Assembly (NCBI GenBank): GCA_027604005.1
Contig: JADGJT010000028.1
Coordinates: forward strand, 1 to 64,000
Length of the DNA: 64,000 bases
DNA from: Dinochytrium kinnereticum
Lineage: Eukaryota > Chytridiomycota > Chytridiomycetes > Chytridiales > Chytridiaceae
Reading direction: 5' to 3'
Shown piece by piece: positions 45,640-63,830 of this stretch. The translations under genes were made by a program, and so were the position numbers. Within the stretch, counting starts at the first letter, position 1. Each line of letters starts with the position of its first letter. The notes under the pieces were generated by a model that saw only the letters and a program-made list of their open reading frames with translations, did not search any database and had not been told where the DNA came from.

Positions 45640-45806
45640 TTGGTTCAGGCGCGAGCTTCTGAGCTTTGTATTCTGTTTATGGAGTCATGACTTTGTGAAG
45701 CGCGTGAAGGAGACAAGTCAGAGGACAAATCAGTAAGGTTTTTTTTTGATTCTATCAGCTTAGGCATGTGCACACATCGCCTTGAGCACCCATCACGTCG
45801 TTATCT

Positions 45807-47749
45807 TCACAGTCCTCCTTTCTTATCCACCACACCAAGGGCCTGCCCCACCCTCAGCTTCTGGCCTTCCTCAAGCAGGAACTTAAAGTTCTCGGGAGCC
45901 TCAAATACCAAAACCACAGTACTTCCAAGTCTAAAGCCGCCGACTTCCTGACCCCGATAAAGGGTTCTCCCCTTTCCTCCAAAGTGCTTTTCCGCGTAAG
46001 TGCCTAAGGGCTGCGGGTTAAGCTCCTTGGGTAAGTTTGTTTCAAGTTCCTATAACACGAGGTGAGGAGGGTTAATAGATACTCAATACAGACACATGAC
46101 TGACATTAAGACAACTTGACAGAGATGATGAAGAAAACTTACAGGAGCCATGTCGATGCGAATACTACCAACGTTCGTTGCGCCTACAGGAATCATGGAG
46201 AAAAATCCATAAGCCCAAGATCCCGTCAAAGTCACACGTTCGTTAAGAACAAACAGGTTTCGAATCTTGGCAACGACCATTGGGGACACAGAGAGGAGCT
46301 CGCCTAAAGCAACAAAAAGTAAGCTTCACACCTCTAACTAGCCGCACAAGATGGAATCAGCCACACAAAAAATAAGCCTACTAACCAGCAAAGTGACGAA
46401 GCGTGTCAACATTCCAATCTGCCGGAGAATGGAATCGATGATAATCGCCCGGTGCAAGGTAAATGACGCAATAGTGGAGGGCTCTCCCTACCGAGGGGGC
46501 AGATTTGGCCGCTGGGTCGGCTTCAGGGTGAACTAGTGTTGAAGTGGAGCTAAGAGGAGATCCAAGAGGAGTTGAATGCTGGGATGCGCCGTTATCAAGC
46601 AACCTTGTCGTTCCGTCATAACGCAGCCCATCTCGTCCCAAAAGAGCGTCAAGTGAATAAGTGATACCTTTCACCTGCTGAATATGGCGATCCTGGACCA
46701 CTCCAAAATTCAACACTTTTCCATCAGCTGGACTGACCTGTTACAGATTATAATCGAGTCAGCATCAGGCAAGGACAAAAGGCTTGCTGCAAAGATTACC
46801 AATGCGGCGACAGGGTCGATCGGCCTCACGCCATCCTTCAGCCGTCTGTAGAAAAACTCTCCAAGGTTCGGGTAGGACTTGAGGTCCTCATCCAGCATTT
46901 CGTCGAGGTTGCATCCAAATGCGTAGGAGTATGTCTTATAAAGGGGTGTTCGTAAAAAAGTGGGGACGGTAAGCCCATTAAGCCATCCCCACAGGCGAGA
47001 GGCTTCCCGGAGTGGAAGAGCCGCATACATGCGAATCTAAAATAGGCAAAGCAGTAAGTAAAAGCCCAATCAAAGGTTAATCCAACCTGTAGAGGCCCTT
47101 CGACGATCAAATCCGGATGAATGGGCGGGTTCTCCTTCTTTTCTTCATCGGCTCTCTCCTTTAACCTTCGAAGATGCAGCAATGCAATGACGGCGAGCCC
47201 AAGGGAGATAGGGATGGGCTTCCAAATAGTCTTTGTATCAAAGAGAGCCTCCCTCGCTCTCTCAAAGGAGTCTAGAAATAGGCGGAGACGGTGCGGAGAA
47301 GACACGGTTAAGCGATCACACCAAAGAAAGAGAAAGGTGCGGTGTTCAATTACGCAAGAAAGTTAGAGAGAGGAATGCCCATTCAAGAATGGATCCGACG
47401 GAAAGCCATGTATGCCATTGTTCAGCCAACCGAATCATGGACAGATTTGATGGAGGGAGAATTGTGGAATAAACCCAAGGAGAATGGGATGTGGAAGCTG
47501 ACCTTTTGCCTCGTCAAAAAAGGACTTTTGCTTATGGTCCTGATGGTACTGTCTCTGTTGTCTCGGGGCTTGCGGCATGCGCCTGAGGCCGGCGGTGCAT
47601 GACGCACGGGACTGGAAGGGAGGATGGGCGGCAGAGGAGGATGTGATGAGGGTCCTCTTTCCGTCAGCAGCCGCAGCCGCGCGAGGGCATTGCAGTCGCA
47701 GGTGGTAATGTCGATGAAGACATGCGCGCAGAGCAGCAGCACCGTTCAT
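45807..47749 (-). CDS. PSD1: Mitochondrial phosphatidylserine decarboxylase
   Basis: Minus-strand exons 47749-47503, 47271-47087, 47036-46800, 46737-46386, 46303-46143 and 46049-45807 give 474 residues. An Arg/His/Ala-rich leader suggests mitochondrial import, and a hydrophobic span (about 100-115) would anchor it in the inner membrane. Catalytic blocks follow: [42 protein letters not shown] and the self-cleavage site FRLGST, whose Ser (about 437) becomes the pyruvoyl group. The enzyme turns phosphatidylserine into phosphatidylethanolamine. A Ser/Thr-rich insert of about 40 residues sits between the DGKV and YLAPGDYH blocks. The first exon is joined on phase and targeting-peptide character. 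Confidence 0.88.
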
Positions 47750-47919
47750 TTTTTTTTTTTTAATTATTTTTATATGAATTTCTTGTTTTAATTAATTATT
47801 GTTATTATCGTATTTTTGCTCTTTTTCTTTAGTGCTGTGCATCGCAAGGAGACACGAGGGTGAACACATTCAAAATATTCTTTCTCTTCCATCCCAATAA
47901 TCGTCGTCTCGTCTCAAGG

Positions 47920-48613
47920 ATGCCCCTCTCAAAGACCATAGCTGCCCAGGCCACCCTTAAGAACTTCCTGATCGCCGGGGTTGCCTACCTCGTCTCCGTC
48001 TCCGTGCTCAGGAGGACTAACTGGATCCTCTTTGGCGGATCGAGGTCCGCCTTCGCCTTTAACCCCGATGTCGACCTTAACTTTGGCTACTCGGGTGAGG
48101 ATGTGATCACCGCCATTGGTGCTGCGGGCCTCTCTTTCTTTGGAAGGGTGATTGCTCTCCTTGGTACCGCCGTGAACTTTGCGTGAGTTCTTTTACTGTG
48201 GCTTCTGATCCGTTATCTCTGATTGTTGATCACCGCGGCCCGTAGTGTCGATCACCTATTTACCCATACCTCCTTTGCTTTACAGCCAGATTCTCTCATT
48301 TGCCGGCGTTTCCGCAATTCTTATTAATGAGGGTGTCAAAGTTGCCGGTGATGCTGCCAAGGCCTTTACCAGCGCCAACCAGGTCCCCCTCGCCTCGGCC
48401 GCCCTTCACGTTGTTGAGACTGTGATCATCCTTTTGGCGATCAACTCCCACTCTGCTTCTCTTGCCTCCCTCGGTGGACTCATCAGCTACGTCAGGGGGT
48501 TAACCGCCGTCGCTAACTTCTTGGCCCTTCTTGTCGCACTGCCATTCCTCGTTCAGTCTTGGTCGAAGAGCATTGGCCGCGACGGCAGGCAGAAGATTGA
48601 GAAGAAGAACTAA
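47920..48613 (+). CDS. Small multi-span membrane protein, unknown function
   Basis: Exons 47920-48182 and 48286-48613 give 196 residues starting MPLSKTIAAQATLKNF. I do not recognise the family. Four hydrophobic segments are visible at about 13-30, 62-82, 120-150 and 160-180, rich in Ala, Gly, Val and Leu, with a charged, Lys-rich C terminus (IGRDGRQKIEKKN). The coding sequence is rich in C-ending codons, as in the peroxidase and Qcr2 genes here, which hints at strong expression. It may be an organelle membrane protein; that is a guess. An AATAAA lies at 48858, only 9 bases before the stop of the convergent arrestin-like gene. Confidence 0.65.
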
Positions 48614-48857
48614 ATTATATGGTCCTTTCTTATTTTTTTGCCATTTAATGTTGGCGATTGCTGACGTCTGTCGTCCTTGTCGTTTACTTTGTTTTTTTGG
48701 GCTCAGCTCTTTCTTACGAGCGGATTTATGAGTTATTTCTCTCTCAGCCCTCTCAATAGAATGTCTCGTTTTTTAATTCACTCATCAGATGAATGTTGCT
48801 TTACTGAGAGTGTTAACGAACAAACAGAAACAGAAAGTGGAACGACAGAAAGTTATA

Positions 48858-48863
48858 AATAAA
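48858..48863 (+). terminator. AATAAA polyadenylation signal for the small membrane protein gene
   Basis: AATAAA about 245 bases after the stop at 48613 and immediately before the end of the convergent gene, implying overlapping 3' UTRs. Confidence 0.45.
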
Positions 48864-48871
48864 ACCTTGGA

Positions 48872-50005
48872 TTACTCCTCAAGGTCTGCTTGAATCCCCG
48901 CAGCGTTTCTGACAACCCACGCCCGCACGTCTGCGTCTGCGTCGATGAAAACGCAAGGGGCCTCCACTCTGAGATCAGGTTCTCCCTTGATTTTGATGCA
49001 GATCTCATACGCATGCCGAATTGAAAATATCTCATTATAGGTGTCCTGCAATGCATTGATGGTCCTGTGATCTTTCTTCGATCGCCAGTGTGTTGCATCG
49101 ATGGTGGCGAACACCTCCCCAATCCAAGTTGGAGGGCCTGAGGACTTGCCAGTGCCACCTCGGGGAATGACCCTCCCCGACACATCCGGTACGGAGATCA
49201 ACTCGCGAACGACTCGAGTTAGGCCCTCACCTAAGGATATGACAGCATCTTGACGGATAGCGACAGTAACACTTGTAATATTGGTGCGAGGCGAGACGGG
49301 ACGGACATGGTGGATGGTAAACTTGACAGGTTCTTTGAGTCCGAAGATTGCTTTATCGATACCGACCCTCCATTCAACTTTTTCGTTCAATCCGGCAATC
49401 ATCACACCAGTATCAGCACCTTCTCCTCTTAAAACGGTGGGCACATCGATTCTGGGGAAATCAACTGGCTCCACAACCCTCTCTGTCTTGATGGTCGACC
49501 CAAAAAGTCCAGGAGCCAGACCAACCTCAGCCTCCAGCTTGTAGTTCACTCCAATCGCATCTGAACCATTCTCAGACCACTCTGTGGAAAGCGAAGGCGG
49601 AAGAGAAGCAGTGATCTTTTCGGAAAGGGTGAATTCGAAGGGGAATGAGTGGGTGCCTGCTTTGAGGGGTACTGATCGGTCGCTCTTCTTCTTGGCATCT
49701 GCGCTTGCAGGGGCCAAAAGAATCTTTGTTTGCTCAAGAATGACTTTCTTCGCCTTCTTTGCGTTGATGAATGCGCCGTGGGGAGGTGATGCTTGTAGTT
49801 GCGGCCTCCACTCTCCATTGCCGGAGATTGAGGCAGCCAAGTCCCCCAGCAGGGTGATCTTGATGGAAGCAATTGAGACGCTCCTTGTAGCCTCGAATCT
49901 GACAATACCGGAGACGGTGACAACGGGGGTGACGCCCAGGTAGCCATGGAACAAGCTCTTTGAGCCGTCAACGGGCTCGATCGTGAGGTCCTCCAACGTT
50001 GGCAT
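48872..50005 (-). CDS. Arrestin-fold (alpha-arrestin-like) protein
   Basis: A single frame of 377 residues from the ATG at 50005 (MPTLEDLTIEPVDG). It shows an arrestin N-type sandwich: FHGYLGVTPVVTVSGIVRFE, SIASIKITLLGDLAAS, the HSFPFEFTLSEKITASLPPS block, NYKLEAEVGLAPG, then a C-type half opening near VEWRVGIDKAIFGLKEPVKF. No PPxY motif is seen, unlike yeast ubiquitin-ligase adaptor arrestins, so a trafficking or scaffold role is more likely than Rsp5 recruitment. The frame stays open upstream, and an ATG at 50191 would overlap the divergent NLR gene's ATG at 50190; the downstream ATG, where homology begins, is preferred. Confidence 0.7.
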   Translation of the reverse strand: MPTLEDLTIEPVDGSKSLFHGYLGVTPVVTVSGIVRFEATRSVSIASIKITLLGDLAASISGNGEWRPQLQASPPHGAFINAKKAKKVILEQTKILLAPASADAKKKSDRSVPLKAGTHSFPFEFTLSEKITASLPPSLSTEWSENGSDAIGVNYKLEAEVGLAPGLFGSTIKTERVVEPVDFPRIDVPTVLRGEGADTGVMIAGLNEKVEWRVGIDKAIFGLKEPVKFTIHHVRPVSPRTNITSVTVAIRQDAVISLGEGLTRVVRELISVPDVSGRVIPRGGTGKSSGPPTWIGEVFATIDATHWRSKKDHRTINALQDTYNEIFSIRHAYEICIKIKGEPDLRVEAPCVFIDADADVRAWVVRNAAGIQADLEE

Positions 50006-50189
50006 GATCTTGTTTGTGTGTGTGACTCCAGACACTGCCCCAAAAAACAAACTGGAAAGGGGATTGTCACAGATTTTCACGGAGGTGTCGATAATGCCTG
50101 ATACTGGCAGCTCCTGGCAATAACGTAACAGGAATCCACCAGCAAGCTGGAAGAACACGCGCCTCAAGTAGCTCTCTTTGGAAAGGATC

Positions 50190-53100
50190 ATGGGTGGGAA
50201 GGGCTCAAAGACCGCTAGGAGGGGTCGTATCAAGGTCAATCCGGAATCGCTTCAGCGGCAACCTTTAAAAGGGAGTGAAGATGGGAATCGAGATCTCGCA
50301 CCAATAGATGTGGACACACGAGGCTCTGAGGCAGTCAGGCGGAAAAGCTCTCAGCAAGTCTCGAATCAGCTTTCTCGAAATAACACGCATGCATACTCCA
50401 GCTCAAAGTTTCCTGGGGGTCCTGGGGGTTCGACACGAAGCTTCTCCATGCAACGAAATTCAATAGAATATAAAGCCATCGATTCGAATTCTAAACTTTC
50501 AATGTCAGAGATGGACGAAGTGGATACGCCGCTTCGACAGTTTTTACTCAATATTGGCCTCCCAGTCGTGAGTGCTTTAATTTTACAAAGAATTACCTTG
50601 CACTCATGGCTATATGTTCTAAGAACCTTTATCACCCAGCACTATCTTAGAAGTTTCCGTCTCGAAGGATTAGAGGCAAACGCGAATGATTTGAACACTT
50701 TAGTAGAACTGGATGACTTTTCTTTAAACGCATTGCTTCTGGAAATGAACATCAAATTAGTCCACAAAGCTGTTCTAGTCTCAAAGATTAAAGCACTGAG
50801 ATCTGGTGCGGCAGCCATCTCTCCTCAATCAGGACGGCTAAGAGCAAGCGATGGTTCCCTTATGGTACTGCAACATACAGGTCCGATGGTTGCTGTTATA
50901 CCTGCTCCTTTGGAATCTAAAGACATCGAAGAGATCCAGCCTCCGCGGCACGTTTCAGTTGCCTCACAACCAATTGTAAAGAGCACAACAGACTTATCCA
51001 AGCAGGTATATATAGTTAACTGAATGATCGCTAATGATTGCTTTTTTTTTTTTTCCTCAGAATTCTGACAGTCTCGCTATATTACCGGGAAAAGCATCCG
51101 ACACTCATTCTTACACTCATGGTCGTCGTGGATCCGACGTGTCGCTGAAGCCAAAGGAACGTTTTTTCTCACATTCCAATCTCGGAGGTTAATGATTTTT
51201 CTGAAGTTATGCAACTGACCATTTTACAAAATAGCCTCCGACCCCGTGAGAAAGCTCTATGTTCCAAAATGGTCTTGCCGACAACAAAAAGTCGCCCATG
51301 ATTTCTTTATAAGGTACCGTTGCGTAGATGGCTTGATTAAGAGAAGTTTTATAGTTATCGGGCGGAGGCTGATCAGAGCAGCGCTGAGAAACTAGCTTTG
51401 TTGCTAGAAACCAAATCAAAGCATTGCTTTTTTGATAAGAGGTGCCTTGTGGATGGCATGGATTGGGAGCAGGGTTTCTTGAATGGCCTCGAACGATCAC
51501 GATATATTATTCTCTTTTGCTCAGAGGCCGCGCTTGAAAAGGTTAAATCGGCACATATGGTTGAAGATAATATGCTTTTAGAGGTACTTGATTTATTTTC
51601 TATTCATGACTAATATATTTCTATTATTTTCCTTAGTGGGAGCGAGCACTTATATTGAGAGATAAAAACCAGGTTTTTGTCCAGCCTCTCCTTGTTGCAG
51701 CGTACCAAGATATTCAAGTCGGGACAAAGATATCCAAGGCTCTCTTGCCTTTCAAAGCCTTCGACTTGAGTGAATTTCCGGATGAAGTAATGTTTCACCA
51801 CCTCAGCACACGAACCAGAACCATTCGAGAAATTCTCGCAGAAGTCTTTAAGATTCAAGGCATTCGTCTTCTCCCGGACGAAGTTGAAGGGTAAGAATGT
51901 ACCGAGCATAAGTTTTATTGACTGAATAATTCAACAATAGCACTATCCCAAAGCTCCTGGATGGATTATCTCGGTTACAGGGTCAGGCAAAAAATCTTAA
52001 CGATCCGAAAATGGAGTTAGTAGAGCTGACCTTAACAGCCCGAGAAGCGAAGCAACTAAGAGACTGGCTTCGCCCACTCAACATGGAGGATGAGCGATCC
52101 CGTCAACGAAGACGACACGTGGCCGGAACCCGACAATGGCTTTTAAAGCAAGTACTGGATTGGGCTCTTGACCATGCCGAAGGAACAACGCGCGTCTTAT
52201 GGTTGCGTGGTGCATCGGGACTAGGAAAGTCAGTGATGGCGGGATACATTGCAGATTCCCTTCAATCCGATCATTTATTGGGAGCGGCTTTCTTTTGTAA
52301 GCACGATGATACCGAACGTAACGACCCTAAAAGAGTGGTGGAAACTCTTGCATATAGTCTCTCAAAATGGAGCCCAAAGTTTGGTAGAATGCTGCTAAAG
52401 ATTCGCGAAGAAGAGCCAGAGCTCCTCCAAAGGGGCGCAGGCACTACAAGGTTCACGAAGTTATTGCTAAATCCATTGGTAACATTGAATGAGATGGGCA
52501 TGCTTAAACCTGTTGTTCTTGTTGTCGATGCGCTCGATGAGGTCGGCATTAAGGGCCAACGTAGCGACTTTTTGAAGATATTTGCTCAGGACTGCTTACG
52601 ATTACCCCCATGTATCAAGCTTTTTGTTACCAGCAGGCCCGATCTAGATATTGTCGACGCGTTTAGACAAATGAGCCCGATCAGCATTGAGCCATCTCAG
52701 GAAGATAACCTCCACGATCTAACAAAAGTAGCAGAAAAGAGACTCATCGGCGAGGTAAAGCTCCCACCGGATCACTCCAAATCAGTTGCGAAGCGTCTTG
52801 CAACAATGTCCGAAGGGGTGTTCATATGGCTTAATCTCGCGTTCTACTGCTTAAAAGAGCGGATTCCCGCCAACGCGATAGAAGATGAGCTGGTGTCTTT
52901 AGACCAGATCAATGCGATTATTGACAGACTTCCTATGGGACTCGACGAGATGTATAAGCAAACTTTGTCGTCTCTATACCTCTCGGGTCCAGGTGGGCGA
53001 CCCAACACCGATGTGATGAGGATCCTTGGTGCCGTTGTATGCCTGCGAGAACCCGTCACAGAGACCGCGTTAGCCGAGCTCATTGGCATGGAAATAGCAC

Positions 53101-56094
53101 TTTTAACATCGACGCTACGAAATTCTCAAGCCGTTTTAAATGTTTCCGTCAGAGACTCGAAAGTACGGGTGATACACAAGTCTTTGAAAGACCATCTCAC
53201 GAACCCAACGCGAAGCCATAGGAGGTTTCGTGTGCGAGTCACTGAGGAGCATCATCGACTGGGAGAATCTTGTATCAACATCATCCTTCGGAGTCTCCAG
53301 CGTGGCATGGCGGCTATACCCGAATCACTTAATTACGCCTGTCGATATTGGGCGGTTCATATTGCTGGGTGTCTCGGAACCGCGCCATCACTCTTACGTC
53401 TAATTGATCGTATGTGCTCGGAGAAACTTCCAGAATGGCTTGAAGCGTTAAGTTACCTGAAGGCCTTGGATAAATTTGCCGTTTCTTCGTTAAGGTCACT
53501 GGTATCCTGGTACCCCCACAGTTCCATCGCGTCACCTGTAACACTTGCAAAACAATCTATCAAAGAAGATGCAACAAACACAGTGTCTCCACAACCATCA
53601 CCACCTCGCCTTAACGGTCCCCGTGCAACAAGAACTCTGTTAACGGACCTTTTGCGCCTGGTTCTCGAATTCCGAGCCCCTATCGTCGAGTCCCCTGAAG
53701 ACGTTTACAGATCCGCTCTCCCATTTTGCCCATCACGATCCGCTCTATGTCAAGCTTACAGCCAGCGATACCAAGGGGTTCCATCTGTCTATCGAGGACG
53801 TGACGCAAGGTGGGGACCATGTTTATTCAGTTTAGGTGGACAAGGAAGGGATGACAGCGCACCTGTGCTCTGTGTGTCGATTGCGTTAGATGGGTCACGA
53901 TTTCTCTCCGGATCCGCGGATGGGTCTTTAAGGCTCTGGTCGCTCGAAACGGGTGAGACTCTGAAAGTGTTTGAATGGGATGCTGGCGATTCGCCTATTC
54001 CCAAAACTCGTATCGAGGCTACGGCTATTGGTGTTGGTGAAGGCAATAGTACGCTTGGTTTTACCACTAGCGATGAAGGGAGTCTAGTACTATGGTCATT
54101 CGAGCTGGGTGCGCCACTTCGACAAATCACATTAGACGCTTCTTCCTTACCTGAATCATCCGACGATGCATCGACTTCTACTAGGGAATCTGAGGAAGAC
54201 TGGAGAGACGCGGATGATCAATCTCTACCCGTTTTGTCTGGGAGGATCTCAAAAATGATAGGATGGGCCTGCATGACCTCTATTGTATTTTCAAAGGACT
54301 CGAGAGTTGTGGTCGTTGCGGGGGATGAGAAGATTGCATCAGTATCATTGGAGACTGGCAAGTTTTTGTGGCTTCGACGTGAGCCAAGGTGTCAGATTGT
54401 CTTAGTTCGAGCCGTTTCACATGATACAAGGCTAATTGTTGGAGCAGGAAGGTATGCGCGACCTAGTGGTTTTTCTGTAGAGTCGTTTAAATTTCTAGAA
54501 ACTTACCTTCTTCCTTTTTTTTTATACCTACAGCGCGATAAGAATCTTGGCAGCAGATTCTGGTGTACCGCTTTCATCAATGGAGATAACCAACCATTTA
54601 ATCACTGCACTTGCTGCAACTACCGACGGATCCCTCATTGCTTACGGAAGCGATGACGCTTTAATAAGGCTCATAAATTCAGAAGATGGCACAACCCTCT
54701 GTACCCTGTCAGCGCATCATGGTCCCATAACATCCCTCGACATCTCTCCAGACGGTCGCAAAATCGTTTCAGCCTCATCCGATGGAACAGTCCGAATTTG
54801 GCTCTCTATCCCAGCCCCAAAGTCATCGGAAGCCTCTCGAAATCAGCCAGCAACCCCCACAGGGACAAGTCAAGGGAGACAAATATCTATATCATGTGAG
54901 CCAACGTTTCTGAGTGACATGCTAGACCCGCCGACGAATCCGTCCAACGTAGATTCACCGCTGACTACCGAGTTTTCTTCGAGACTTGAAGGAGCTGATA
55001 ATCTTTACGGAACTTCATCACCCGGAAACCTTGGGACGCACATTACGCTTGAAGGACACACTCAGGGGGTTACCTGTGTTTCAATTACTCCTGATGGTCA
55101 TCGGGTTGTTTCGGGATCTATCGACGGAACTATCAAGATTTGGTCTCTGGATACTCTTGGAATGGCAGAACGAAGCGCTGAAAGCCATACAGACATCGTA
55201 CTCAGCCTAGCTGTTTCCAAGAGCCACCTAAAACCTGAATCACCAAACTCATCTTTCGATGGTTCACTTGATCAAATTCCTTTAACTAACTTTAAGGATG
55301 GGTCTGCAACTATCTATCATAAGGGCAGTATGGAGTTTCATCGAACATCTGTAACAAGCAAGCCATCAGACCGCACATCAAATCCACATCCATCTCCTCC
55401 AGAAAGAGTATCAACCCCATCGGCCCAAGCAAAGCCGGTGGCTACGGATCCAGCCATACAAGAGTATTCAGAGTTTCTGGCGTCTGGGTCTAGAGACAGA
55501 ACAGTGAAGGTTTGGAAGATGTCCACCGGAGACCTTTTATGGACGCTCAAAGGACACATGGCCCCCATTTACTCAGTCGCGATCCGACCTGACCGTAAAA
55601 TGGTGGCCTCAGGATCTTCGGATGGTGTCATCAAGCTTTGGTCCACAGTCACTGGAAACCTCATTAGAGACTTTTATCATGGAATCGAATACGGTGGCAG
55701 AGTCAAAAATCTCGAGTTCACTTTTGACGGCACGCGTTTGCTGTCATGGGTGGAGGACAAAGTATTGGTTTGGCACATTCCAAACGGGATCCTTGAGAAC
55801 AAAATTGATGGCCACGTTCGTCTCTGCTCAGATCATCGCCACATCTACGTGCAGGAGGCTTCTGGAACAGAAAAGGTGCTGGACACCTTCACATTTATAG
55901 AGGTTCCATCACAAGAGCAGACAGCGATTAGCGTCCGCGACATAAGAATTGTTAATGGTTGGGTGGTAGATTCGGAAGGCAAGAGGGTGATATGGTTGCC
56001 CGAGGAGTTTAGGGGGATGGCTATCAGTGATTACAGCGGGAAGCATCTTGCTCTATTTGGATACAAAGGTCGAGAGTGTTTTCTTCATTTGTAG
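50190..56094 (+). CDS. SAM-TIR-NACHT-WD40 protein (NLR/STAND-type receptor)
   Basis: Eight exons: 50190-50567, 50640-51005, 51061-51187, 51235-51313, 51355-51583, 51637-51890, 51941-54451 and 54534-56094; phases agree; 1834 residues. The start MGGKGSK fits N-myristoylation (Gly2, Ser6). A SAM domain covers about 114-180 and needs removal of the 72-nt in-frame intron 50568-50639. A TIR domain covers about 311-440: HDFFISYRAEAD, CFFDKRCLVDGMDW, LERSRYIILFCSEAALEK and MLLEWERAL, with Glu393 in the position of the catalytic Glu of NAD-cleaving TIRs. The NACHT region has Walker A GASGLGKS (568-575), Walker B VVLVVDALDE (about 668-677) and LFVTSRPD. From about 1100 to the end there are some eight diverged WD40 repeats (e.g. 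FLSGSADGSLRLWSL, VVSGSIDGTIKIWSL) with disordered inserts. It is most likely a sensor whose WD40 array controls NACHT oligomerisation and TIR activation; function is inferred. Confidence 0.88.
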
Positions 56095-56352
56095 TTTTTT
56101 TGGTCGACTTTCCACATTATCTGGTGATTCATATGTCCCTGAATAAATACATCTATTATATATTATTCATACAAAAGTAGAAAGTAACTGCATTGTCACC
56201 CTCTAAGAAAAGACAGACAAGGTATTCAGGGGGGATGATATAAACACACCTTAAACAACACCAACAAACAAACGATATAACAACTCAACGTAGAAATAGA
56301 CAGCCATAGGAAAGTAACCAATGAACAAAAAAACATAATAACACTTCATACG
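56095..56352. other. Convergent 3' region
   Basis: About 260 bp of AT-rich DNA lie between the stops of the NLR gene (plus) and the membrane protein gene (minus). GAATAAATAC near 56140 is the likely polyadenylation signal of the NLR gene. Confidence 0.5.
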
Positions 56353-57855
56353 TCATTGCGGCAACCCCAAAAGCATCCGTACTAGCGCAGGGTCTAAATC
56401 CTTCTCCCGCAAAACTTCAATGTCCGGCTCTTGCTCCTTCTTCGGAAGACTCATACTAGGAACAGCAACACAAACGCCCCCAGCATCTGCAATGGTCCAA
56501 GGCTCATCCGCGATAGGTTTTTGCCTTGAGATCAATGAGAGGGTTGTAGCCATAGGAAGTCTAAGAACTTTGATTCCAGATCCAGCCGCCCTCGCCTCTC
56601 CACGGACCTCAGCGGCCAAGTCCCCAAAATCAGGCTCACCATCCGCCCAGGAAGCAAACCACATGCCCTCCCGCTTGATGTAAAACCAAGCCCGGACAAA
56701 CGACCTCTGAGCCCACCGAAAGAATTTCTGCGAGAGAGACCTACGCGGTGGTGAAGCTGTCGAACGAGCTCCCTCAGAAGATTCTGCTCGGTCAATACTT
56801 TCGAGGGCATTGCGGAGGTTGGTCTCGTACGCTTCAATCTCGTCCCGTCCACTCGTCCCCGCCATTCCTTCGCGACCGTCCACGCTATCGTAATGGATTC
56901 GTATCAAGTGGGAGAGGAGATGATAGGATAGACCCCAAGCAACAAAAAGGATAGAAACACCAGTTGGGTAGTTTTGGACGAAAAATGTGGTCGCGTTGGT
57001 GTTTGCGAATATGTCTTTCACTCGGGCAATGGAGTAAAGAACCAGAATGCCGAATGAGACGGCTGAAACGCCTATCATTAACCGCATAACAGCTATGGCA
57101 TCGGACTCGTAATGACCTGCTACAAGTTGCATAGGCGGGGTGAGCATTATAGGGCGAATTAACAATATGTAAGCGACGGAAATAGAGAAAACGCAATTTA
57201 GCAATGGCTCACCAAAAAAGATCCTTCCAACCTGCACCTCACTCGCTCTGGTAATTACAGCAAACTCGGGTTCAGCAGGTGCTGCAACGTTAGCTGAATG
57301 CCGAGACCCGTTCATCATGGAATTACGATACCGTCCACCCATAAAAGAAAACTGGTTCCCTCTACTCCTGGACCTCCTTGAAGCAGACCGAAATGACGAA
57401 GACGATCGTCTTCCAGGTTGCTCCTCAGCATTTGGTAGTGATGGGGATAAAGACTCAGTCCCAGAGGTGGTGCGTTCCAACGAAGAGGATGTATGGTTTC
57501 GAGATCGAAGAGTGAGGGAACGTGATGAGGAGAAGAGGGAGCGAGAGAGTGAAGAAATGGAGTGACGGCCTTGGGTGAAAAGAGGTGCTTCTGCAGTGGT
57601 ATTCACGATCGCTGTTGTGGATGCTGTGTCTTGGGCAGCTAACCTTGGTGAGTAGTTTTCATTCTACCTCAATGCATAAAGAGAAGTTTTACCTTTGCCT
57701 TTGCTCAAAGAAGGCGATAAATCAGGTTGAGTCTCGGAAGGAAGCGATGAGTTGCATTCAACACCGACTGACTCATTCGTCTTGATGGAACTGGCATGCC
57801 GATCCGTCAAGGCCGGTGGGGAGGTAGCGTCCAACCCAAGAGGGTCTGTAGTCAT
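56353..57855 (-). CDS. Multi-span membrane protein, unknown function
   Basis: Two minus-strand exons, 57855-57693 and 57638-56353, give 482 residues. The first 170 residues are disordered and very Ser/Arg-rich, with runs such as SLSRSLFSSSRSLT and RSASRRSRSR that look like kinase targets. Three to four membrane spans follow, around FGEPLLNCVFSISVAYILL, VMRLMIGVSAVSFGILVLY and GVSILFVAWGLSYHLLSHL, with a conserved-looking cytosolic tail of about 170 residues. I do not recognise the family. The protein could be an ER or plasma-membrane protein. The splice at 57639-57692 is short, with the acceptor chosen to avoid an in-frame stop. Confidence 0.6.
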
Positions 57856-58549
57856 TTCTTCTCAGTTTGCCGAGTCCAGATGCCTTCACTTGTTTCAGCT
57901 CAACTGCATGCAGAGTCGTACGAAGGGCCAACAACTGGTCTTGGCCCTCCATCGTAAAATCTTGTTGAATTCTGCCTCAACCCATGTCTCACTCAACCCA
58001 AGGCAAAAAAAAAATAACACACGACTCCTCTGAGACCAAATGGGGGATGCTAACTAGCCAAGTTCTTCTGGAGATCACGTCGCTTTAGAAAGGGAAAGGA
58101 GGCCGAAACATGTTTAATAATAGATAACTATAGATAACCCTCCGCAGGCTGAGAGGACCACACTATTAGAGCAAATAGCGGTGGAGAGTTCAAATTCGAC
58201 CGAGCAGTAGGAAAATACAAAATAATGAAGAGATTGAAATACCCATATGCGGGAAACATTGTTGCTGAGTGGAAAGCGGAAACACGGTATATGTGGATTG
58301 ATGAGCGCAGACACCAAAGATAACAAAAAGAATAGTCGGCCCGCAAGAAAGCAAGAACAAAAAGGAACATCACTGCGTTCAAAAAATAGCAAGCCAAAAA
58401 ATATATAAAAAAAAGAAGAAGAAAAAATAAATGGAGAAATTAAAAGAGTGGTTCGGATCGCAATAGATATAAAGCGCATATAAGCAGAAAAAATAACAAA
58501 TTCAACCAAACAATGTTGAAGTGGGAAAAAATTGGGCAAGTCAAAGCTT
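57856..58549. other. Intergenic 690 bp
   Basis: This lies between two minus-strand genes: 3' UTR of the long zinc-finger gene and promoter of the membrane-protein gene. AT-rich, with short repeated ATAGATAAC motifs near 58120-58137. A hydrophobic open frame on the minus strand (58114-58599) overlaps the end of the zinc-finger gene in another frame and is not believed. Confidence 0.5.
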
Positions 58550-61500
58550 TCAACTTTTGGAATCTTCACCGAGTGACAACGGCGACGGGGGAAGCGCAAA
58601 GCCTTGTTGTCCCATGATGCCCTTCCCTGATCCCGCCAAATATCCTGTCACCAACGCTGCCTCCATCGCCGAAGCCCGGGTAGCCCTGTGGTGCATAACA
58701 CGCCCCCGCAACGGCCCTTCCCTTCCGAAGCCATTAGAATCAGTCGATTGATCCAAGGTAGGAGACCCCTGCATCAACATTGTATCAAGGTCAAGCGAGG
58801 AAGGCTTATTTGACACATTCCCTTCGATGTTTTTCGCACTGGCAGAGGATTTCTTAACTGTCGGCTTTCGAGAGGCACCATTATTCTCGTCTTTCACTCT
58901 CAGAGAAGGGCACGTCTGGAGGTGATTTGTCAATGCGGCCATTTCTTTGATAACAGACTTGCAGGCACCACAAGTCAGGGGCAGCTTTGAACCATGGACC
59001 TAATTTCACAATAAAAATACAGTCATGCCATGTAAGAAAGACAATTGCGAGATGTATGGCAAGATAAATATCGAGGCCAGCAAGACTTACAGTTCTAATA
59101 TGCCTTAGAAGATCATGCTTCCTAGCAAAGGATACTTTACAAAAAATGCACTTATGCGGTCGTTCATCTATAAAGTTTAAAAAATTAGATCTCAAGCCTA
59201 TAGAAGAGTAACAAAACCAATGTGAAAGACCATCCAATCTAAAGAAAGAACCCCACCAGAATGAGAGACTAAATGAGTTTTCAGACTATACGGCCTCGAG
59301 AAAGTTTTCCCACACCCCGCAATATTGCAAACGTAAGTCCTTCCACTGCCTCCACCCGACTCCTCTTCCAACACCGGGGACCCAGGCGCAGAAGAAAGCG
59401 AAGGCGTAATACTCTTCAGGCCTCTTCCAAAGTCTCCACCAGTATCCATCCCAGCAGCACTATTTACGGACACCGTCGATGACCTTCGAGATATGGCCGC
59501 TATCTTCTCCGTCTCAGAAACAAGCGGGCTGGCGCGAGGATGCATTCGCTTCCTGCAAGCAGGAGGGGTGATGGGAGTTAGGGGGCTTGCCTCCATCGCA
59601 GCAACATCAAGGCTAGCTCCATAGCGCTTAGATGTATCTGAAGCAGCAGCAGTGGCGGTTGTAGCAAGAGGAGGTGGTGCGGAAAAGATACCTCCGGCCG
59701 CATAGAACGCGGGGATGGCTCGAGGGCATGCCCGAAGCTTAGAGCCTGATCGGACTGGCCCAGTAGCACGCACTTCAAAGCGCTGCTTATCCTGCGGCAT
59801 CTTTGAATTCCTCTCTAGGGCATTAAAAGCAGCCACGCTATCCAATTCCTCCGCCTTAACTCCCGATCCACTGGTAGAAGCGCCACCCCGCGTTGTGGGT
59901 GAAGCATCAACCCCGGGTGATGAAACGGCTGACGTCAGAGGAGAGGGTAGGGATCCCGATACATCTCCATTTGATGCGTCAGAACCCATCGAAACACGAC
60001 GCGGCATCTGCCAGCTTGCCTTCTTAGCCAATTGCAGTGTAGCGTCCACAGATGCCGGGGTTGGATATCCAGTTGAGAATCTATTTTGCTGCTGCTGACC
60101 CCCACCGCCCCACATAGGACTATGAGCGCCGGCGCCACTTGCCCAAAACGGATGTGGGAGAACGGGAGAAGGTGAGGTGACAGAGGATGCAATTACATTC
60201 TTGCGATCTTCCACAGAAGCAGTGTGATCCGAAATATGTGATGGGTCAATTGTCCCGTGCGCTCCAGGATATCTCCCCCCGAAACTCGGTGATGTTGCAC
60301 CGCCATAACCAAAAGGTGGGAAAAAGGGCGATGTTGGAGATCCATCACCGCCAAATAATGGAGAGCCCTCCCCGGAGGCTGCAGCTGCGGCTGCTGCCGC
60401 CATCCAGGCATACGCTTGCTGATGATGAAAGAAAGCCTCCTGAGGAGTCAACATGCCAGATGCTATTGAGCCAGGACCCCCAGTACCAAATGCCATAACC
60501 GCGGCAGCCGATGGATGGTAAGGATAGGCATCCATAGGCGTCTGTGGCTGCTTTCGTCTCGCATCTGAGTTTGGGGTAGGGTGCGCATCGAAAAAGTGGG
60601 GGGATGAAGGGGCAGAAAAGCCCTTTCCTGCATCAATGTGGACGACGCGGCCCGGCCTCCGCGATGGGTAAGGTGATAAGAAAGGTAAAGGTGAGACTTC
60701 CAAGTCCTTCATCTCGTCCATGTTCTCAATAGCCTCCCTATTCTCTCCCTCCTTATCTCCCGACTCTTTATCTTTACGTTGGTCGGCTCCCTCACAAAGC
60801 CTTTTCTGATTCGTATCAGGGGCCATATCCTCAACCACATCGTTTTGTTCCTTTCCCGCCTTTACGGCAAAAGTTGGCGACGCGAGAGGTGACGGAGCGA
60901 AACTAGCATGCTGATTACTTCGTTGCCTTAACGGGGTGGGCATCTGTAATGGGCTTATGTGCTGGGGAGGTGACCGTAACATCTGCTGTTGCGAAAAGTT
61001 GTGTAAGGAAATCTGCTTACGCGGAACGCGTTGCACGGCCTGTCGATGGGCTGAATGAGCTGGGGGGTACATCCGACCGGCGCGAAGTGTTTGACGACCA
61101 CCTCGGAAAACACCAATGGGGTCCACTCCGTTTCCAGAAAAGGCCGCGTGGTTGGCGGCGGCAATCCACATAGCGTCTTCAGGGGCGAGCGACATGGTCG
61201 CGCTAGCCATCGAATCAGCAACGCTTGCACGCGAATAATCCATGGCTTCTTCAAGAAGATTAGCGGTCGTCATACTCTGCTTTTCGGAAAGGCATGAAGA
61301 CGCAGTGTCGGAGCCAAACATCAACGAGGACCCACTATTTAAGAGTTCAGGTTCCAATTGTTGCTTCCCAAACTGATGTGGCGAAGCATCCTCCACAGCT
61401 TCTGAGCCCCAAACTGAGTTTGCATCTTGCAGCTGGGAAAGGAAGGGTGGGATCCCTCCTCCGGTCATTCCCTCATTAGGATCCCGCGGAAGCGAAGCTG

Positions 61501-63830
61501 ACGGCGGCGTCAAGACGTTCTGTCCGATGGTGGTTGGAACCGAAGTATCATCTGGGCTTCCAAGCTCAGAATCGAAGTTACCAGAGGACGTTGGTACTAC
61601 TGTTGTTGCGGATGTGAAAAACTCTGAGGGTCGAGAAGTCGAAAGTACATGCTGAGCCGCTTCACTATCATCCAGCGGAGCAGATTCCAACGCACCAAGT
61701 AGAGACCTTAGAGCCAGGTTCCTGCGAGCCATAAGTGCCAAATGCGCATCTTCCTGTAATGCCGACGAACTCTTTGTCCTCTGCCAGGACCCCTCAGACA
61801 TCAGAAGAAGCTGATCAATAGGCCCTAGCGCAGCCGCAGCAATCTTCGCCCTCGCGATGGCTTCATCCTCGTCGTCGTTGACATCAACAGAGCATCCGTC
61901 CGCAGTCCGCTGCCCAATCAAATCGTCTACCTGAGTATCTGCCGTCGGATAGGTAGCAGATAGGGCCACACGTCGTACAGGATCTCTGTAAGCCCGTGTT
62001 ACTGGCGCGTCGTTGTCTTTTTTCCCATCTTCTAACAGTGGTGTAGGTGCGTTCTCACCGTCCAGCGTGCTCACGCTCGCGCCAGCTTGAGGCTGGCTGC
62101 CCACGACGTTCCGCTCTTCATCGCTAGGATGTAGGTCCGCTTCCCCTCCTCTGTTCTTCCCGTCACCGACGGCTCCTGCCGATTCATCACGCCCATTATG
62201 CAACGGCAAGTGCTTCTCAGAATCAGATCCTTCATGATCATGTTGATTCGTCCCTGCATCAGAAAAGCCATTTTGAGCCTTTCCAACCCCTAGGCCCGTC
62301 GAGGCAGTTCCAGAAGCGGCATCAAGAAGAGCTTTAATCAGCGACGACGACGACGAGGAAGACGACGAAGCCTGCGCCATGCCATCCTTAGCAAGACCAC
62401 AGCTTGTGCTTCCACTAGCAGCAGTGGCCGGCGTAGAGTGATTCGTTAGTGTCGGAGATGAGGCTGAGGACGCCGTGGCAGTAGAATCCTGCTGTGACTG
62501 CGATGATTCCACTGACGTGGGGGACTCTTGCCTCGGACAAGGTGATGGAGAACCATGGAAGGCAGATGAGGAGGTATTTGAAGACCGTCTATTTCCCGCC
62601 GACGGCGGAGGCACCTGCACTGTGGATAACGGTGGGAATGCCGAGGATGGGAGATATGGATGGTGGTGGTTATAAAAATGCTGAGATGGGGGAATAGGTG
62701 GAAAGAATGACGGCGGTCCAGCCCGGCCAAAGGCCGCCGCGACCATGTGTGAGGTGTACATCGGGGACGAGGGGGACGGAGAAAGATAGGGCGGGCCATA
62801 TGGCCTCATCCATGGGTTAAAAGCCGTAAGGTGACCGTAATCCGGGTGGCCATACCCAGACCCTGCCATGGAAGGATGGAGAGCAACGTGCGGAGGAGCG
62901 TGTCCAGCTCCACCTCCACCTACCCCGTTCCCAGCATAAACTACAGCATGCGCTGCCCGCATATGGGCGGCGGCAGCGGCAGCTTGCTGAGATTGGGCTA
63001 AATGAAGCCTGGCCATGCTTGAGGTCGAGAGTGGGGATGGATGCTGCGTGCGCGAAGTAAGCCGGGATTTGGGACGAGTTGGGGACGAAGGATGAAGAGA
63101 AGATGTGGTGGAAGAAGGAGCTGACGCTGGATGTAGCGGAGGTGGGCCTGACGATGGGGGTACAGTGATAGAATCGTCACTGGGGCGGCTGGAGGTTTGT
63201 GGATTAGATGCGGTAATGGTGGTTGTTGTGGTGGATGGAGATGTGAGTGCACTTGAAGCACTCGTTGGCGGATGATTCCCCCAGGTTCGCATGCCAAGTC
63301 TCTCAAGAGCATGATTTCGCCGGCCCTGACGCAAATTCATCCTGGCCGATGGCTCGGGGGAGCCCGCATCTGCACTAGCCTGATTTCCAGCCTCCTGCAT
63401 CGCGCCATCTTTGTCGTCAAAGTGAAGTTCTGAGGCCTGTCGGATGTGCTGCATTTGAGATCCGTGGGTGGAACCCTCATTGGAGATGGCTCGCGGTATC
63501 GAGTCCTCTTGCAGCCCCTGCATCATCATTGCTCCCTCACCGATTGAAAATGGATTTGTGCTGCCTTGCATGAGTTGGAGAAAGCTTGCAGCTGATGACG
63601 GCTCCACATCCTCACTCTGGATGGCATGGACAACAAAAGTCATTAGTGAGCAATCAAGGAAACAGGCCATCAAATGCAAGCGTACGCACGTCTTTCTCAT
63701 CTCCAGGGTAACCCTCGCCGTCACCAAAGCCCTCCTTGTGCAGGTGCTCAGGGTCGGACGATGTGGTGGCAGCGGCGAGTGGAGAGTCAAACACCGATGC
63801 TGCAGCAGCTGCAGCAGCTGCGCAGCTCAT
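58550..63830 (-). CDS. Very long C2H2 transcription factor with Crz1-like fingers
   Basis: Minus-strand exons 63830-63690, 63616-59257, 59167-59091 and 58999-58550 give 1675 residues. About 1450 residues are disordered: runs of Ala, Ser, Gln and His, Pro-rich patches and many SP/TP sites. Fingers follow: C1477-x4-C1482-x12-H1495-x3-H1499 (KTFSRPYSLKTHLVSH), C1507-x2-C1510-x12-H1523-x4-H1528 (KVSFARKHDLLRH) and a degenerate C1536-x2-C1539-x12-H1552-x3-C1556. The linker DERPHKC and the finger 1-2 pair resemble the DNA-binding region of Crz1, the calcineurin-controlled factor; a clear PxIxIT docking site was not identified. The tail after the fingers is Ser-rich. The first ATG used is at 63830, but the frame stays open almost to the window edge with no ATG, so an upstream first exon outside the window is possible. 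Confidence 0.75.
63801..63826. repeat. GCTGCA repeat encoding a poly-Ala run
   Basis: A short trinucleotide-like GCA/GCT repeat encodes about eight Ala residues right after the predicted start of the zinc-finger gene. Such runs expand and shrink by slippage. Confidence 0.7.

Follow-up and report, generated by a model that had tools for sequence, protein, structure and literature searches.

The window, a stretch of 64,000 nucleotides from the chytrid Dinochytrium kinnereticum, contains one conserved gene (Table 1). With somewhat better than even confidence, we read its product as a TIR-NACHT-WD40 type of chytrid NLR (STAND receptor) that begins with a probable N-myristoyl anchor and a divergent SAM-like domain and whose TIR domains would cleave NAD+ upon clustering. 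By homology, the assignment as an NLR with a TIR NADase is well supported, as the TIR fold predicted for the homologue P0014, the conserved glutamate and the intact NACHT and WD40 parts all point to it.

Table 1. Features of the receptor gene in the window
Feature	Position	Strand	Basis or remark
Whole gene	50190..56094	+	eight exons; open frame, GT-AG borders, colinear orthologues P0001 and P0002
Exons	50190-50567, 50640-51005, 51061-51187, 51235-51313, 51355-51583, 51637-51890, 51941-54451, 54534-56094	+	
N-terminal MGGKGSK, N-myristoylation-type pattern	50190..50210	+	pattern match
SAM-like segment, residues about 111-181, cut by intron 50568-50639	50520..50804	+	conservation, SAM_1 in P0002, hhalign
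TIR domain, residues about 311-455, exons 4 to 6	51294..51822	+	Pfam TIR_2; conservation; fold of homologue P0014
Codon of E393, Glu aligned with the SARM1 catalytic Glu	51581..51583	+	phmmer alignment to SARM1
NACHT-type STAND NTPase (NPHP3_N), residues 540-710	52125..52637	+	Pfam
Walker A, GASGLGKS, residues 568-575	52209..52232	+	
Walker B, VVLVVDALDE, residues 669-678	52512..52541	+	
WD40 region, low-conservation linkers, split by intron 54452-54533	53844..55809	+	borders approximate

One gene with a TIR-NACHT-WD40 core

The joined exon chain encodes 1834 amino acids and is interrupted by seven GT-AG introns of 41-82 nt, which were chosen by eye. A divergent arrestin-like gene on the opposite strand has an open frame that includes the start of the receptor gene. 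While the short introns, their choice by eye and the position of the start could speak for a chance join or mis-modelling of adjacent genes, we assign this reading a negligible probability, and it appears largely refuted already by orthologues annotated by others that join these parts in this order. P0001 matches residues 95-1834 of the window protein in a single stretch and P0002 in two (residues 98-1624 and 1372-1834), which backs the single spliced frame proposed in an earlier note on this DNA. That note had also considered that TIR and NACHT might belong to separate transcripts; the two are joined in one annotated protein in seven homologues from six species.

The TIR domain, with its HDFFISYR start, is supported by Pfam TIR_2 with 49.6 bits versus a curated cut-off of 28; the sister model PF01582 has no match in the genome, in which TIR_2 does find matches. 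Residues 297-455 are 93% and 90% conserved in the two orthologues. The TIR fold, on which the original assignment had been made to depend, was found in the predicted structure of the homologue P0014 and not of the window protein itself, with SARM1 as best VIA-align match and with further matches to the TIR folds of plant TIR-NLRs. Searched against PDB sequences, the TIR piece reaches SARM1 at E 0.28 only and a ferritin scores better. In the phmmer alignment E393 pairs with the SARM1 glutamate, which is kept in nine of nine aligned sequences, while the tryptophan four residues before the SARM1 glutamate is an asparagine in the window protein and catalysis could therefore differ or be lost.

The NACHT domain with its Walker motifs, both intact, stands as first described, with NPHP3_N at 100.3 bits (cut-off 24.8), PF05729 NACHT at 25.5, just below its cut-off of 26.7, and a conservation between species of 85-94%. 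The WD40 profile reaches 153 bits, and five stretches pass on their own; seven blade ends emerge from a motif scan and about ten blades by eye, which makes the initial count of about eight repeats a fair one. The repeats are not highly alike internally, the best 35-residue pair being identical at 18 of 35 positions. Among the features of fungal NLRs, the protein possesses NACHT/NPHP3_N with Walker A and B, C-terminal WD40 repeats and an N-terminal TIR_2.

Eight of the 78 proteins in the homologue set carry the TIR motif of the family to which the window protein belongs, and a few others in the set are marked TIR_2. A profile search for homologues returned 66 proteins, with close reading of P0001, P0002 and two Entophlyctis proteins. 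The TIR domain precedes the NLR body in P0001-P0004, P0013, P0015, P0017 and the window protein, while the Polychytrium homologue P0005 begins at NACHT and is devoid of TIR; only two homologues of the SAM-TIR piece are about 200-640 aa long.

The N-terminus and the SAM-like segment

A start of the myristoylation type is shared with P0001 (MGGGSSK), and two likely TIR-NACHT paralogues in the D. kinnereticum genome begin with MGCGAS; P0002 as annotated begins without the pattern, and none was found for C434. An N-myristoyl anchor in front of the receptor is probable and, judged from the pattern, the protein may be myristoylated.

The earlier note had placed a SAM domain just before the TIR domain. 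What stands is a segment that is 65-66% conserved in the orthologues P0001 and P0002 and finds moderate hhalign support, but it has no Pfam match in the window protein, and a poorly conserved stretch of about 115 residues (31-39% identical) lies between it and the TIR domain. Indeed, the segment could be a lineage-specific helical stretch and the architecture simply TIR-NACHT-WD40, a possibility of appreciable weight although we lean against it. No Pfam SAM profile matches the N-terminus of the window protein, a hand-made consensus or the P0001 segment, whether the extra stretch of the latter is kept or removed. By phmmer against PDB sequences the segment matches no solved SAM, although two true SAM domains of the same genome, used as positive controls, match 19 and 25 sequences; a profile search of the PDB equally finds no SAM, and the segment is absent from the matches of the genome searches with SAM_1 and SAM_2. 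Its predicted structure is too poor a model (pLDDT 51.8) to be of use.

Against this reading, the P0002 segment alone gives a SAM_1 match with E 0.0018, at 19 bits below the cut-off of 23, and profile-profile comparison moderately favours SAM. With the fuller SAM set, hhalign gives a probability of 65.7% (59% without P0001), where true SAM domains reach 95-98%; the score of 26.5 lies above all 44 control segments, which reach at most 15.4, and the alignment is in register with SAM1 of SARM1. An earlier comparison with mostly half-length SAM domains gave a weak 9.7%, which still exceeded all 26 control segments. The SAM-like assignment is weak, and a role of the segment in clustering is plausible, not established. 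The segment is absent from Quaeritorhiza P0003, the N-terminus of which has no Pfam match, from Rhizophlyctis P0004 and from both Entophlyctis proteins. A PB1 domain in place of SAM, suspected by eye in the latter, reached E 0.059 in one of the two, below cut-off, and is not claimed.

Mode of action and alternative readings

In the mechanism that we infer, the WD40 part would sense a ligand or an altered host factor, upon which nucleotide exchange at the NACHT domain would lead to oligomerisation and draw the TIR domains close to one another; the SAM-like domain may contribute self-association. The clustered TIR domains would cleave NAD+ via E393, the presumed outcome being cell death, arrest or a nucleotide signal close to a membrane. 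Of the proposal that WD40 sensing drives SAM/NACHT clustering and NAD cleavage in an immunity or cell-death sensor, the NLR-TIR part is upheld by homology, while the SAM step is plausible; the cell-death and immune role we infer from the same relationships.

Conservation and predicted fold suggest that the TIR domain is probably NAD-cleaving. Some TIR domains, on the other hand, serve as scaffold only, and the same NLR could employ its TIR domain to recruit other TIR proteins that act downstream. The genome holds candidates in further TIR-type matches (C40 beside ankyrins, C111 beside Sel1 repeats, two on C202, C349 and C156), several of such matches in the genome falling under the TIR_2 cut-off, and the tryptophan preceding the SARM1 glutamate is not conserved. 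However, with the glutamate invariant in the alignment and the best structural match being an NADase TIR, we consider a pure scaffold unlikely. Equally unlikely, in our estimate, is a housekeeping regulator, acting for instance on development, zoospore physiology or the level of NAD, comparable to SARM1 as a metabolic sensor, in place of an immune receptor. Such a role would fit the high conservation of TIR and NACHT across species, unlike that of a fast-evolving immune gene, and WD40 repeats that do not resemble one another as those of HET-E-type receptors do; it fits less well with the presence of likely TIR-NACHT paralogues and with the combination of N-terminal effector and NACHT-WD40, which the available part of a survey gives as a standard fungal NLR layout (PMC4986451).

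At 20 of 25 SAM loci examined in the genome, a membrane-type segment lies in an upstream frame. A large family of single-pass membrane proteins with cytosolic SAM domains might conceivably recruit the myristoylated SAM-TIR-NACHT-WD40 NADase via SAM-SAM contacts, a pathway that we regard as very improbable. If true, one receptor would combine a signal from the surface with an NLR check in the cytosol, and a zoosporic fungus would possess an adaptor-like TIR pathway that parallels those of animals (TLR/SARM1) and plants (TIR-NLR) but is independent of them.

Relation to known systems

According to the part available of the 2014 survey, NLRs were not found in chytrids (PMC4986451). A conserved TIR-NLR with a SARM1-like TIR domain, along with further TIR-type genes, would extend TIR-based immunity or cell death to zoosporic fungi and connect animal SARM1, plant TIR-NLRs and fungal HET-NLRs in a way that can be tested. 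The differing N-termini on one TIR-NACHT core, SAM-like in the Phlyctochytrium type and others elsewhere, amount to a natural experiment on how a TIR domain is switched on.

The full domain order, for which the earlier note knew of no described fungal system, was not found in the literature searched; still, the gene is less isolated than claimed, because TIR-bearing NLRs of Chytridiomycota and fungal NLRs bearing SAM_Ste50p are already mentioned in the accessible part of PMC9815663. With the former the window protein shares the TIR domain ahead of the NLR body in chytrids and adds the SAM-like segment and the myristoylation-type start, the mention in that part giving no further architecture; with the latter it would share a SAM family at the NLR N-terminus, but its segment reaches the cut-off of no SAM profile, and no TIR is mentioned alongside in the same excerpt.

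The HNWD receptors of Podospora (HET-E, HET-D, HET-R) likewise combine an N-terminal effector, NACHT and WD40 repeats. HET is a remote relative of TIR, as stated in the available portions of two sources (PMC4986451; PMC10197012), whereas the window protein has a bona fide TIR_2 plus a SAM-like part, shows no HET family in a Pfam search of residues 1-478 with E values up to 10, and lacks the highly alike WD40 repeats of HNWD. With SARM1/TIR-1 it shares the TIR fold, the conserved glutamate and a SAM-like part ahead of TIR. Of the SARM1-like parts initially proposed, the TIR domain holds, but the order differs and neither a tandem SAM nor an ARM domain was found, residues 1-248 matching no Pfam family even with E values up to 10: SARM1 has two good SAM domains and a C-terminal TIR, the window protein one doubtful SAM followed by TIR, NACHT and WD40. 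Plant TIR-NLRs (RPS4, RPP1, RUN1) follow the same TIR-NTPase-repeat logic with matching TIR folds, but possess NB-ARC and LRR where the window protein, among the best 25 of 51 families, has NACHT/NPHP3_N and WD40.

One reading frame for TIR, NACHT and WD40

In the 22.4 Mb assembly (558 contigs), splice sites read by eye and by script join eight exons of the window gene into an open frame of 1834 residues, the length previously given in the earlier note, across seven introns which are all GT-AG (41, 47, 50, 53, 55, 72 and 82 nt). Two Phlyctochytrium proteins annotated by others follow the same layout, as P0001 is colinear with residues 95-1834 in a single stretch and P0002 in two stretches (98-1624 and 1372-1834), with 62% identity in the best stretch of each. 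TIR and NACHT occur within a single protein in seven proteins of six species, all Chytridiomycota, namely P0001 and P0002, P0003 of Quaeritorhiza haematococci (TIR assigned from alignment), P0004 of Rhizophlyctis rosea, P0013 of Chytridium lagenaria (355 aa, beginning within the TIR, with a TIR_2 score of just 18.6 bits), and two from Entophlyctis luteolus, P0015 and P0017, both labelled partial. The Polychytrium homologue P0005 begins at the NACHT and lacks a TIR, and P0006-P0012 from the same search lack the TIR motif of the window-gene family. The nearest annotated proteins are P0013 (93% over 335 residues) and those of the two Phlyctochytrium species, which with C. lagenaria all belong to the Chytridiaceae; these relatives mark the assembly as that of a chytrid. 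This colinearity and the recurrent joining of TIR and NACHT uphold the proposal of one protein, and a chance joining of its parts in the window is, for practical purposes, ruled out.

The proposed TIR, NACHT with Walker motifs and WD40 repeats are likewise recovered: Pfam searches of protein pieces give 49.6 bits for TIR_2 (cut-off 28), 100.3 bits for NPHP3_N (cut-off 24.8) and 25.5 bits for NACHT, slightly under the cut-off of 26.7, the whole protein gives 153 bits for WD40, and Walker A and B are present here and in 7/7 TIR-NACHT relatives. Best conserved with respect to P0001 and P0002 are the TIR (148/159 and 143/159 identical) and the NACHT (160/171 and 146/171), followed by the WD40 parts (64-83%) and the TIR-NACHT linker (76-82%), with 24-46% in the N-terminus and remaining linkers. 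On these figures, constraint on the TIR is no weaker than on the NTPase.

The SAM-like part and the N-terminus

The SAM domain claimed ahead of the TIR exceeded what the data support. No Pfam SAM profile matches the window protein, the P0001 segments or the consensus, and the P0002 segment reaches SAM_1 with E 0.0018 and 19 bits, under the cut-off of 23. At thresholds at which two true SAM domains from the window genome, used as positive controls, match 19 and 25 PDB sequences (SAM proteins by name), the window segment (residues ~111-181) matches zero; the P0002 segment and a three-sequence profile match, weakly, unrelated proteins alone. The AlphaFold model, in which an in-frame intron had to be included, is unusable (pLDDT 51.8). 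On the other hand, hhalign against eleven known SAMs aligns 42 columns, matching the register of SARM1 SAM1, with a probability of 65.7% and a score of 26.5. Of 44 other segments from the same query alignment, used as controls, none scores above 15.4; known SAMs, each left out in turn, reach 95-98%. The part is probably a divergent SAM.

As annotated, the Quaeritorhiza, Rhizophlyctis and Entophlyctis relatives lack this part, the last being of the same taxonomic order as the window organism; P0013 is too short to tell. By eye, residues 1-95 of the Entophlyctis proteins P0015 and P0017 look like PB1, for which Pfam gives E 0.059, below cut-off, in just one of them; the segment is possibly another self-associating module replacing the SAM.

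The window protein and P0001 start with MGGKGSK and MGGGSSK, both matching the N-myristoylation pattern, which is fitted by 2/70 long first-ATG frames in the window, one being the window gene; the P0002 start as annotated differs. Upstream, on the opposite strand, lie an arrestin-like frame and, farther away, a phosphatidylserine decarboxylase; downstream follow one frame without a Pfam match and one with a C2H2 zinc finger slightly under cut-off, and no sign of a defence island is seen within ~45800-63800. In the region 50005-50251, the window gene starts within the open frame of the divergent arrestin-like gene; by eye, the likelier start of the latter is 50005, ~185 bases away.

Related loci in the genome

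TIR-type and NACHT loci on other contigs of the window genome
Locus	Contig	Positions	Strand	Content
L022	C16	1876-6077	-	NACHT and TIR-type part (TIR_2 29.7 bits, above cut-off); WD40 repeats
L024	C74	2908-4546	+	NACHT and TIR-type part (TIR_2 20 bits, below cut-off)
L025	C434	2105-6411	-	NACHT and WD40; TIR by eye only
L023	C59	2130-7637	-	NACHT gene; 427-aa upstream frame and 1349-aa frame
L026	C40	1957-4276	-	TIR-type match adjoining ankyrin repeats
L030	C111	2857-4769	-	TIR-type match adjoining Sel1 repeats; below cut-off
L027	C202	3192-3651		TIR gene related to L028; common LLEWE motif
L028	C202	2209-3021	+	TIR gene related to L027; common LLEWE motif
	C349 and C156 (below cut-off)			TIR-type matches

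An upstream frame with an MGCGAS start is found at both the C16 and C74 loci, and no N-myristoylation-type start at the C434 locus. In L023 the upstream frame has no Pfam family match and the longer frame no WD40. Frames upstream of the C202 TIR genes are ankyrin-like by eye.

This genome is rich in SAM domains, as SAM_1 gives 24 rows and SAM_2 gives 35, with overlap between the two. Among 25 SAM loci (L032, L042, L043, L048-L069), 20 possess an upstream frame that contains a membrane-type segment, versus 19/200 random window places; by eye, a basic stop-transfer stretch follows the segment at ~16 loci. The pattern resembles a family of single-pass receptors whose SAM is cytosolic. A few of the membrane-type segments may be translated introns.

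Proposed mechanism and known systems

By analogy with what is established for NLRs, SARM1 and plant TIR-NLRs, the most likely mechanism is that the WD40 part would act as sensor and the NACHT would oligomerise and bring the TIRs together, with predicted NAD+ cleavage by the clustered TIRs, while the SAM-like part may aid clustering and an acyl anchor would position the complex at the membrane. Excerpts of PMC9153377 provide a base for this proposal. On a bold and unlikely reading, the single-pass SAM receptors, if real, could signal to this putatively myristoylated TIR-NLR through a hypothetical contact with its SAM-like part.

No NLRs were found in chytrids with the profiles used in 2014 (PMC4986451). 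TIR is reported in NLRs of Chytridiomycota, and SAM_Ste50p is listed among the new N-terminal families of fungal NLRs, with a pointer to SARM1 (PMC9815663). NLRs transferred from bacteria to Mortierellomycota have also been described (PMC11291939). The earlier note knew of no fungal system with the order SAM-TIR-NACHT-WD40; among the entries listed in the literature searched the full order was indeed not found, but TIR-bearing Chytridiomycota NLRs are already mentioned in PMC9815663.

Given the high conservation of the gene and the lack of internal likeness of its WD40 repeats (best pair 18/35), it need not be a HET-E-like allorecognition gene; a role as a conserved guard or as a metabolic sensor is a serious alternative.
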